Shown here piece by piece: positions 14,612 to 17,593 of a stretch of DNA of 40,490 bases. Numbering within the stretch: position 1 is the stretch's first letter; every line of letters begins with the position of its first letter. The notes under the pieces are model-generated. The model searched no databases. It saw only the letters and a list, made by a program, of their open reading frames with translations, and was not told the origin of the DNA. Made by a program: the position numbers and the translations under genes. Source of the stretch: Cytophagales bacterium (lineage in GTDB: Bacteria > Bacteroidota > Bacteroidia > Cytophagales > CCMP332); contig JANQSY010000033.1 in the NCBI GenBank assembly GCA_028279065.1, forward strand, positions 1 to 40,490. The letters run 5' to 3'.

Positions 14612-16063
14612 ATGGAAAACCGATTCGAAAGCATAAACGACCCGGAAGAATTCAGATCAAAAGGCAGGGAACTGATCGATCTGATCTCGGATGAAATGAA
14701 AAAGATGCACTCCGGAAAGGAAAAGACCCTTTCCAATCCCGATCTGGAGATCATAAAAGAAAAGTATCTAAACATCCTAAGAGAAGGAAGCGCAATGGAT
14801 TTAAGTGGAGTTCAAGAGGAACTTTTCAGTTCTTCTATCCATCTACACGATCCAAAATATATGGGCCACCAGGTTCCCCCACCATATGCCGATAATATGT
14901 TGTTGGATTGGGCGACCGCTTTTCTGAATAACGGGACGGCTGTTTCGGAAATGGGTCAGTTTGGGGTAAGCCTTGAGCAGGCAGTAATACAATTCCTCAC
15001 TGAAAAATTCGGATGGAAAAACGGAGGAGGGGCAATGACCTCCGGCGGAAGCCTTGGAAACCTGACCGCGATGTTGGCAATGAGGCAAAGGATGAGTGGC
15101 GGAAAAACTTGGAATGAAGGAGGAAGTGATTTTGCAATCCTGGTTTCTGAAGAATCGCACTATAGCGTGGCGAGGGCGGCAAAGATTATGGGTTGGGGAG
15201 AAAGGGGCCTTGTTTCAGTATCCTGCAGCGGACACAAGATAGACCCCGCGGGCCTTCAAGAAGCTTACACAAAAGCGGTGAACGCAGGTAAAAAGGTTAT
15301 TGGGGTTGTTGCAAATAGTTGCTCAACCTCACTGGGAACCTTTGATGATGTTGAAGAATTGGCTGGGTTCGCCCAAGAAAAAAAGATCTGGCTTCATGTG
15401 GATGCAGCTCATGGTGGCCCGATGATCTTTTCTCCAAAACATAGATCCAGACTGAAGGGAATTGAAATGGCCGATAGCCTGGTCTTTGATTTTCACAAAC
15501 TGCTCCACACACCCTCGTTAGTAACAGCTGTGATCTTCAAGGAAAAAGAGGATTCCTATTTGGCGTTTGACCAAGAGGCAAAATATCTGTGGAGAGACGA
15601 CCTCAACGAATTTGATTTTGAGATCGGAAAAAGAACCCTTGAGTGTACCAGGGACATAATGGGCGTGAAAGCATTCTCTTCATTAGCCATTCGTGGAGCT
15701 GGTTTTCTTGAGGAGCACATCGATCACCTGATGGATATCACCAAGGAATTCGAAGAGTTGGTCCTTGGAGCCCCGGATTTTGAACTTGCCATAGAGCCCG
15801 AAACCAACATCATTGTTTATAGATTCATTGGACAAGCGCAGGACAGGGAATTCTGGATTTCAAACCAGAGCATGTTGAGGAATAAGGTCGTTGAGGATGG
15901 CACTTTCTACCTTGTAAAGACCCAGATCAAGGGAGACGATTGGCTTCGGTCAACTCTAATGAACCCAAGAACTGATCGAGCCACCATCATTAAATTATTA
16001 GAAAAAATAAGGGAACTGGCAGCCTCACTCCAACCTAAAACCTCCAACCCACACCCAGATTGA
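14612..16063 (+). CDS. Pyridoxal-phosphate-dependent group II decarboxylase
   Basis: A 483-residue PLP enzyme of the group II decarboxylase family (glutamate, aromatic amino acid and diaminobutyrate decarboxylases). Landmarks in order: HLHDPKYMGHQVPPP near residue 80, the GGAMTSGGSLGNLTAM cofactor loop near 130-150, ESHYSVARAAKIMG, HVDAAHGGP with the PLP-nitrogen Asp, and the Schiff-base lysine Lys296 in DFHKLLHTP, where many relatives have a DPHKW context. Substrate cannot be read from these motifs; the L-2,4-diaminobutyrate/aromatic branch is the closest by feel. It makes an amine plus CO2 in the cytoplasm. Its 3' end overlaps the convergent barrel gene by 29 bp. Confidence 0.88.
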   Translation: MENRFESINDPEEFRSKGRELIDLISDEMKKMHSGKEKTLSNPDLEIIKEKYLNILREGSAMDLSGVQEELFSSSIHLHDPKYMGHQVPPPYADNMLLDWATAFLNNGTAVSEMGQFGVSLEQAVIQFLTEKFGWKNGGGAMTSGGSLGNLTAMLAMRQRMSGGKTWNEGGSDFAILVSEESHYSVARAAKIMGWGERGLVSVSCSGHKIDPAGLQEAYTKAVNAGKKVIGVVANSCSTSLGTFDDVEELAGFAQEKKIWLHVDAAHGGPMIFSPKHRSRLKGIEMADSLVFDFHKLLHTPSLVTAVIFKEKEDSYLAFDQEAKYLWRDDLNEFDFEIGKRTLECTRDIMGVKAFSSLAIRGAGFLEEHIDHLMDITKEFEELVLGAPDFELAIEPETNIIVYRFIGQAQDREFWISNQSMLRNKVVEDGTFYLVKTQIKGDDWLRSTLMNPRTDRATIIKLLEKIRELAASLQPKTSNPHPD

Positions 16064-16748
16064 CATCAAGGTAGCTTATTTCACTATGGTATCGGTATTT
16101 GTTGAAGTCATTAGCCTGTCCACTTGGAACCTTTGCACTCCTGAAGTACGTGGGGGAACCAAAATTATACCCCGCCCGGATCGATAGATAAGTGTTGTCG
16201 ACCACCCCGCCAGAACTGGAGATCAACCCCAGTCCGATATCAGCACCCAGCCCAACTCCTGCCACCATAGACCAGCCATGGGACACCATCGTTCCTGCTT
16301 CTTCGACCTCAACTGTAGCTGAGACATCGGAGAAAAAATTATCAAAGCCAAGTCGGAACTCTGTATATGTTGAAAAAAACTCGGTTCGAACGAGGTTGTA
16401 CCTGGCAAGACCCCGAACATGCCAGAAGCAATCCTCTTCATAAACCGGGACCGGTCCGTCTTGGGTCATGAGATCATACTCCGCCTTGTAATACATGGCC
16501 ACACCCAATTCTACCCCCAAAGCCCATCTGGACTGAGTTGTCCTCAGGTAATTGATTCCAAACCCCGTGGGGATCGCACCATCCAGGATTCTGGCAAATT
16601 CACCTGTTGGAGAATACATATCAATGTTAAACCCGATCTGGTTCCTGGCAGAAATGGGGTTTACCAGTGATTTGTCGACCGCTTCCTGGGCAAAGGAATA
16701 TTGGATAAAGAGGAATAGGAAAGGAGTGGTGAGTAATGTTCTTTTCAT
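16035..16748 (-). CDS. Outer-membrane beta-barrel protein
   Basis: A 237-residue protein with a signal peptide (MKRTLLTTPFLFLFIQYSFAQ, cleavage about after Ala20). The rest alternates polar and aromatic residues in strands such as RWALGVELGVAMYYKAEY, FSTYTEFRLGFDNFF and TYLSIRAGYNFGSP, and it ends in GVGWRF with a terminal Phe, the usual Bam recognition signature. Size suggests an 8-stranded barrel. No enzymatic motif is seen; it may be structural or a receptor of unknown ligand. It lies 49 bp downstream of the tRNA-Gly gene on the same strand and overlaps the decarboxylase gene tail by 29 bp. Confidence 0.78.
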   Translation of the reverse strand: MKRTLLTTPFLFLFIQYSFAQEAVDKSLVNPISARNQIGFNIDMYSPTGEFARILDGAIPTGFGINYLRTTQSRWALGVELGVAMYYKAEYDLMTQDGPVPVYEEDCFWHVRGLARYNLVRTEFFSTYTEFRLGFDNFFSDVSATVEVEEAGTMVSHGWSMVAGVGLGADIGLGLISSSGGVVDNTYLSIRAGYNFGSPTYFRSAKVPSGQANDFNKYRYHSEISYLDVNLGVGWRF

Positions 16749-16797: not shown

Positions 16798-16912
16798 AGC
16801 GGAAGACCGGGTTCGAACCGGCGGCCCTCAGCTTGGGAAGCTGATGCTCCCCGCCTGCCAACCTCCTTTGCATCGCTTCGCGGCGGGCAGGTACCAACTG
16901 AGCTACTCCCGC
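16798..16912 (-). tRNA. tRNA-Gly (anticodon CCC) with a 42-nt insertion in the D-loop
   Basis: Read on the minus strand from 16912. Acceptor stem GCGGGAG pairs with CTTCCGC (one G-T), discriminator T73, no encoded CCA. D-stem GCTC pairs with GAGC; anticodon stem TCAGC/GCTGA encloses TTCCCAA, so the anticodon is CCC. Variable loop GGGCC; T-stem GCCGG/CCGGT with the standard TTCGAAC loop. Everything is canonical, and removing 42 nt between A21 and G22 of the D-loop leaves a normal 73-nt tRNA. Length as encoded is 115 nt. A -7 box lies 18 bp upstream. Bacteria can read GGG with tRNA-Gly(UCC), so this gene may be dispensable, or the insert may be tolerated or removed. Confidence 0.9.
16850..16891 (-). 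repeat. 42-nt hairpin-forming insertion inside the tRNA-Gly D-loop
   Basis: The arms are CCTGCCCGCC and GGCAGGCGGG (minus strand), which can pair in two registers: CCTGCC with GGCAGG, or CCCGCC with GGCGGG. The loop carries GCGAAGC. The GC-rich composition differs sharply from the A/T-rich flanks. It resembles the short palindromic elements dispersed in many bacterial genomes; no second copy was noticed in this window. Confidence 0.75.
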
Positions 16913-16929: not shown

Positions 16930-16937
16930 CAAATTTA
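16930..16937 (-). promoter_or_regulatory. -7 promoter box (TAAATTTG) for tRNA-Gly
   Basis: On the minus strand the sequence TAAATTTG matches the Bacteroidota -7 consensus TAnnTTTG, 18 bp before the tRNA 5' end, giving a leader of about 12 nt. A TTTG lies 15 bp further upstream, shorter than the usual 17-23 spacing. An 8-bp inverted repeat (TTTGAGCT 16919-16926, AGCTCAAA 16949-16956) brackets the box. Confidence 0.5.
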
Positions 16938-16969: not shown

Positions 16970-17593
16970 ATGGGGAAACAGAAAAACCTAAAAAGCACTG
17001 ATTACGAAGACCTGATAGACCATTTCTCGAAAAATGACCTTAAGATCTTCGAGATACTTGAGAAGGTAGGGCCAGTGGAGTTCGATTTGATCGAGAATCC
17101 ATTCCAAGCCCTGGTTGAGTCCATACTATCACAACAGGTTTCCACCAAATCAGCTGATTCAACCATCCAAAAGGTAAAAGACTTTCGAGGTGGATTTGAC
17201 CAACCCGAAGAATGGATCGGGATAAGCACAGAAAAATGGAGGGAATACGGTGTCTCAAGACAGAAATCCAGCTATCTGGACTCTCTTGCAAATTTCTTCA
17301 TTGAAAATCGTAAACAGCTCCACAATCTGGACAAGATGAAGGATGATGAGATCGTGGAACTATTGGTTCAGGTAAAAGGAATAGGGGAGTGGACTGCCCA
17401 CATGTTCCTGATCTTTTGCCTTGGGAGGGAAAATGTACTTGCACCTGGAGACCTGGGAATTCGATATATGGCCCAAAGGGTTTATGAGCTTAACGACTTG
17501 GCGACCAGGGAAGAGCTTGAGGAGATCAGCAAACCCTGGCATCCGTATATCAGTTGGGCCCAGATCTATTTGTGGAGGTATTCAAGAATTTAG
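16970..17593 (+). CDS. DNA-3-methyladenine glycosylase, HhH-GPD family (AlkA-like)
   Basis: A 207-residue helix-hairpin-helix DNA glycosylase that removes alkylated purines in base-excision repair. The core shows the conserved helix FQALVESILSQQVSTKSAD (residues about 45-63), the hairpin VKGIGEWTAHMFLIF near 135-150 and the catalytic Asp161 in LAPGDLGIRY. The protein lacks the N-terminal domain of E. coli AlkA and is close to the compact MAG-type enzymes. The start at ATG 16970 gives a natural N-terminus and lies 57 bp from the divergent tRNA gene. The stop is followed after two bases by the TTG start of the trmH-like gene, so the two form a likely operon. Confidence 0.9.
   Translation: MGKQKNLKSTDYEDLIDHFSKNDLKIFEILEKVGPVEFDLIENPFQALVESILSQQVSTKSADSTIQKVKDFRGGFDQPEEWIGISTEKWREYGVSRQKSSYLDSLANFFIENRKQLHNLDKMKDDEIVELLVQVKGIGEWTAHMFLIFCLGRENVLAPGDLGIRYMAQRVYELNDLATREELEEISKPWHPYISWAQIYLWRYSRI

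Follow-up and report, generated by a model that had tools for sequence, protein, structure and literature searches.

A short palindrome, probably a mobile element, in the D-loop of a tRNA-Gly(CCC) gene from a Cytophagales bacterium

In the 40,490-nucleotide (nt) contig JANQSY010000033.1 of a Cytophagales bacterium (assembly GCA_028279065.1; Bacteroidota), referred to here as the window, a tRNA-Gly(CCC) gene on the minus strand carries a 42-nt palindromic insert in its D-loop. The reading that we favour, with moderate confidence, is that the D-loop of a dispensable tRNA gene received a short palindromic mobile element and that the gene was left inactive or marginal. The element would have inserted once, between positions 21 and 22 and without visible target duplication; it would be one of a class of small palindromic repeats with CCTGCCCGCC...GGCAGGCGGG ends that occur in several copies in some Patescibacteria genomes and recur there in tRNA D-loops, and its presence may have been tolerated because the wobble reading of tRNA-Gly(UCC) extends to GGG. 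The mobility of the element, an enzyme that would have mobilised it and the loss of tRNA function are steps that we infer.

The gene spans 115 nt (16912-16798, minus strand) and consists of a 21-nt 5' half (16892..16912; positions 1-21, with the 5' strands of the acceptor and D-stems and the D-loop up to A21), the 42-nt insert (16850..16891; CCTGCCCGCC-GCGAAGCGATGCAAAGGAGGTT-GGCAGGCGGG) and a 52-nt 3' half (16798..16849; G22 to the discriminator U73, CCA not being encoded), with the anticodon CCC at 16835..16837 on the same strand according to ARAGORN. When the flanks are joined without the insert, ARAGORN recovers a canonical and complete 73-nt tRNA-Gly(CCC) cloverleaf, as had been predicted in the first-pass annotation, which was made from the letters of the contig. 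With the insert left in, both ARAGORN and Rfam choose only a poor alternative whose 5' end is built from letters of the insert; this model scores 29.2 bits in Rfam against a cut-off of 29, and the other tRNAs of the same genome score 48-76 bits. Relatives in the order, including G028, G012, G020 and G018, match the tRNA query in two stretches, 1-23 and 66-117, which adjoin each other directly with the 42 bases gone, and therefore the 42 nt are an insertion. The comparison of relatives with and without the insert that had been proposed earlier yields the insert-free state in several of them. An old structural feature or D-loop expansion was considered as well and is ruled out by these exact empty sites.

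The full sequence of the insert is CCTGCCCGCCGCGAAGCGATGCAAAGGAGGTTGGCAGGCGGG (16891-16850, minus strand), and its G+C content is 71%, compared with 45% for the window. The two hairpin registers recognised at the outset are both confirmed, at -15.6 kcal/mol for CCTGCC/GGCAGG and -17.3 kcal/mol for CCCGCC/GGCGGG; the strength of the hairpin is not significant by itself against dinucleotide shuffles (z -0.94). The insert is judged to be an element because of the precise empty site and the matching elements elsewhere, rather than because of its hairpin strength. Its boundaries are unique and cannot be slid, because the bases adjacent to the junctions differ, and no target duplication is visible at the junctions. 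The insert also holds AAAGGAGGT (16861-16869, minus strand), the complement of the usual 16S rRNA 3' tail, which is probably a chance occurrence.

The matching elements come from a scan in which only tRNA letters served as the pattern: about 85,000 species genomes were searched for tRNAs in which GGTA and GAGC are separated by 18-48 bases. It returned 24 matches, some of which consist of runs of N, show a lengthened anticodon region, are tandem tRNAs or may contain an archaeal intron. In several Patescibacteria matches, the 5' half of a tRNA is followed by one palindrome arm after GGTAG or GGTAGA, a complete second tRNA and then the other arm. The arms of these D-loop palindromes agree with the ends of the insert at 21/21 positions in locus L070 and at 20/21 in L058, L069 and L076, where the chance expectation of such agreement is about 1e-11 per locus. 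A truncated tRNA piece that lies upstream in L070 has a palindrome without an inner tRNA at exactly GGTA^GAGC, and the viral contig L178 holds a copy of a tRNA 5' exon with a palindrome, CCTGCCTGCCGGCAGGCAGG, at exactly the same position. Besides L178, the matches inspected in D-loop scans of viral contigs comprised normal tRNAs, tRNAs with extra length at a point downstream of the D-loop, and sequence that did not resemble a palindrome-bearing tRNA.

The genomes behind the D-loop loci were also searched with the end motif of the insert, the reversed pattern serving as control. Matches outnumbered those of the control by 9 to 0 in G397 (Kuenenbacteria) and by 5 to 0 in G394, and were fewer in the other genomes. 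Two G397 copies that were fully read have the form CCTGCCCGCC-N22-GGCAGGCGGG and are 42 nt long like the insert, the ends of which are identical to them at 20/20 positions. The Patescibacteria repeats, for instance those of G397, share with the insert identical 10-nt ends, the same length and related palindromes in tRNA D-loops; they differ in occurring in several copies per genome there versus one here. Interiors vary among the Patescibacteria copies themselves, and that of the insert is without a match. The viral contigs with the end motif form a mixed set and are uninformative.

The core of the insert is unique in its own genome at up to 3 mismatches, so that the search for further copies proposed in the first-pass annotation returned no second one, and no resident high-copy repeat was found in this genome. 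With the end motif, only the tRNA locus has matching ends, three other pattern matches lacking them. The core is also absent from 389 other genomes of the order (up to 2 mismatches) and from the viral contigs searched, and a BLAST search with the 42-mer against plasmids and phages gave only chance-level matches (E 2-8).

Several points weigh against the reading of the insert as a mobile element in an inactive gene. With neither a second copy nor a detected Y1_Tnp/RAYT gene in the genome, mobility here is putative, and the interior 22 nt of the insert are unmatched elsewhere. The search for end-motif repeats is not independent with respect to the ends, only the D-loop loci being so, and it is informative in repeat length and copy number. 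In most of the Patescibacteria D-loop cases the site is shifted by two bases, to GGTAGA^GC, and the palindrome encloses a whole tRNA, unlike the insert. Every stem of the tRNA is intact, as are the G18-G19 pair, the anticodon and U73, and the G+C T-stem departs on both sides from most relatives; either the tRNA was undecayed when the insert arrived, or selection continues. This integrity would leave room for a recent insertion or for a tolerated extra arm. The Bacteroidota -7 promoter consensus is TAnnTTTG, and a candidate match to it, TAAATTTG (16930..16937, minus strand), lies 18 nt upstream of G1, where about 0.01 such matches are expected by chance in the 57-nt spacer; no well-spaced -33 box accompanies it.

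The gene appears to have been free to fail. The genome also has tRNA-Gly genes with the anticodons UCC and GCC, and Gly(CCC) is absent from G002 of the same family (one contig, 33 tRNAs) and from G001 of the same genus (25 tRNAs, 93% complete). GGG amounts to 19.7 per 1000 codons in the larger open frames of the window; provided that their codon use is similar, the relatives without Gly(CCC) would read this codon with the UCC tRNA, by wobble. On this view tRNA-Gly(CCC) is a dispensable isoacceptor. In folding energies predicted for unmodified RNA, the cloverleaf with the insert hairpin is 8.2 kcal/mol less favourable than the free minimum; the same gap is 2.9 kcal/mol without the insert and 1.0-3.7 kcal/mol in five normal Gly tRNAs. 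In the predicted minimum, GGGGAGC at the 3' end of the insert pairs with GCUUCCC, the anticodon included. The transcript most likely misfolds, on these predictions, and would give little or no active tRNA. There was no match in the genome to the EndA tRNA splicing endonuclease (PF01974), for which positive controls matched, and no group I intron core was found, the Rfam scan of the window giving only the tRNA. Excision is unlikely because of these two negatives, and the insert probably stays in the RNA. The gene is thus probably inactive or marginal rather than spliced. Three fates of the RNA were considered at the outset, namely excision, tolerance and loss of function; the evidence tends to favour a dead or dispensable gene.

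The alternative that survives best, although we consider it rather unlikely, is that the 42 nt form a tolerated extra arm of the D-loop and that the 115-nt RNA functions as tRNA-Gly(CCC). The intact stems, G18-G19, anticodon and U73 and the candidate promoter box speak for it, as does the outer tRNA of L060, both halves of which are intact around a D-loop insert. The manner in which glycine tRNAs are recognised is also favourable to it, as glycyl-tRNA synthetase reads mainly the acceptor end and the anticodon. However, the predicted fold hides the anticodon, the position of the insert on top of the D-stem adjoins the tertiary core, and the isoacceptor is dispensable. The two other palindromes at the exact site, in L070 and L178, lie in truncated tRNA pieces, and this truncated state suggests that such genes may be dead. 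Moreover, tRNAs fused to hairpin aptamers mostly ceased to be active in translation (PMC7590224).

It is improbable that the palindrome is of local origin, for instance by replication error or template switching, and that its likeness to the Patescibacteria repeats reflects convergence of G+C-rich palindromes. Such an origin would agree with the single copy, the core unmatched anywhere searched and the short arms of 6-10 bp, as well as with the lack of a match to the Y1/RAYT transposase (PF01797) in the genome, a draft that is 97% complete and in which the controls matched. It is countered by the shared 42-nt length and by the agreement at 20-21/21 arm positions with D-loop palindromes that were found without using their sequence. 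Still less probable is removal of the insert from the RNA as a mini-intron, by some nuclease and ligase. The boundaries are precise and the insert pairs with itself, and in a tRNA of an archaeal locus of Aenigmatarchaeota (L068:7467-7562) 43 nt, possibly an archaeal intron, are inserted at this very site, GGTA^GAGC; yet the genome has no detected tRNA splicing endonuclease, the insert falls far short of the length of a group I core, and its stem is too short for typical excision by RNase III. An assembly or binning artefact is the least probable explanation: the genome is a draft of 191 contigs, but the contig continues into an HhH gene known from the same genus, both tRNA halves are unique, and the insert occurs in no other record searched, so that there is no donor for a chimera.

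A broader version of the mobile-element reading can be offered tentatively. There may be a family of tiny palindromic elements in a Bacteroidota lineage and in Patescibacteria that prefers tRNA D-loops, after GGTA or GGTAGA, and some members of which in Patescibacteria would enclose a complete tRNA of the same anticodon that replaces the broken gene. The present insert might then be a member without a tRNA in a dispensable tRNA gene.

In the neighbourhood of the gene, a 237-aa reading frame without a Pfam match (16035..16748, minus strand) follows 50 nt after the tRNA. On the other side a divergent gene for an HhH-GPD base-excision repair protein (16970..17593, plus strand) serves as a synteny marker with locus L040 of the same genus; at this syntenic locus of G001 the neighbours are kept and there is no tRNA between them. 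Gene content and the candidate -7 box are both in keeping with a Bacteroidota organism.

The D-loop loci brought further arrangements to light. A complete tRNA is nested in another tRNA between palindrome arms in L057, L058, L060, L069, L070, L075, L076, L078 and L079 (Patescibacteria) and in L067 (bacterium), and the inner anticodon equals the outer one wherever the latter is readable. Joining the flanks gives an intact outer tRNA in L060 (Val CAC) and L067 (Ala TGC), and ARAGORN finds no outer tRNA in the joined flanks of L057, L078 and L079. The downstream half of the outer tRNA of L076 has more palindromic inserts, in the anticodon loop and the T-loop. The truncated piece of L070, which precedes the nested tRNA by about 160 bases, contains two different inserts, one after AGCT and one after GGTA. 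In L178 (500-1420) the tRNA 5' exon is duplicated, one copy having the D-loop palindrome; the two copies flank a GIY-YIG-like frame, and there is a group I intron at 1182-1416.

With respect to known systems, repetitive extragenic palindromic (REP) elements with RAYT resemble the insert in their size of about 20-40 nt, their imperfect G+C-rich palindromes and their sometimes intragenic position (PMC3733652). The hallmarks of REP/RAYT systems, namely high copy number, a Y1 transposase and a GTAG or CGTC end tag, were not found here. The palindromic elements of Rickettsia, mentioned in the first-pass annotation, likewise lie inside genes; they are likened to the insert by description only, and the closest matches found to it are the Patescibacteria repeats rather than those of Rickettsia. 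Group I and II introns of bacterial tRNAs also lie inside the tRNA gene, but at 37/38 near the anticodon and with a catalytic core (PMC4033280), whereas the insert is 42 nt long, lies in the D-loop and has no core, in line with the early judgement that it is unlike a group I intron. The non-canonical tRNA introns of archaea are likewise small, a possible one in L068 lying at the same site, but they depend on EndA, to which this genome gave no match.

A 2014 review described bacterial tRNA genes as surprisingly uniform, with group I and II introns near the anticodon as the only significant insertions (PMC4033280). A search of part of the open-licence literature did not turn up any palindrome described from the D-loop of a bacterial tRNA. 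The initial view that this is an unusual site for an insert is supported. Short palindromes inside genes are known, protein-coding genes being named as examples (PMC3733652), and the D-loop insert is a new form of them. It also means that tRNA finders, here ARAGORN and Rfam, can overlook or misread tRNA genes with such inserts. With a D-loop palindrome that is not an intron, and with cases from another phylum, the idea that tRNA loops serve as landing sites for tiny palindromic elements becomes testable, as does the question of whether an additional D-loop arm is compatible with function in a bacterial tRNA.
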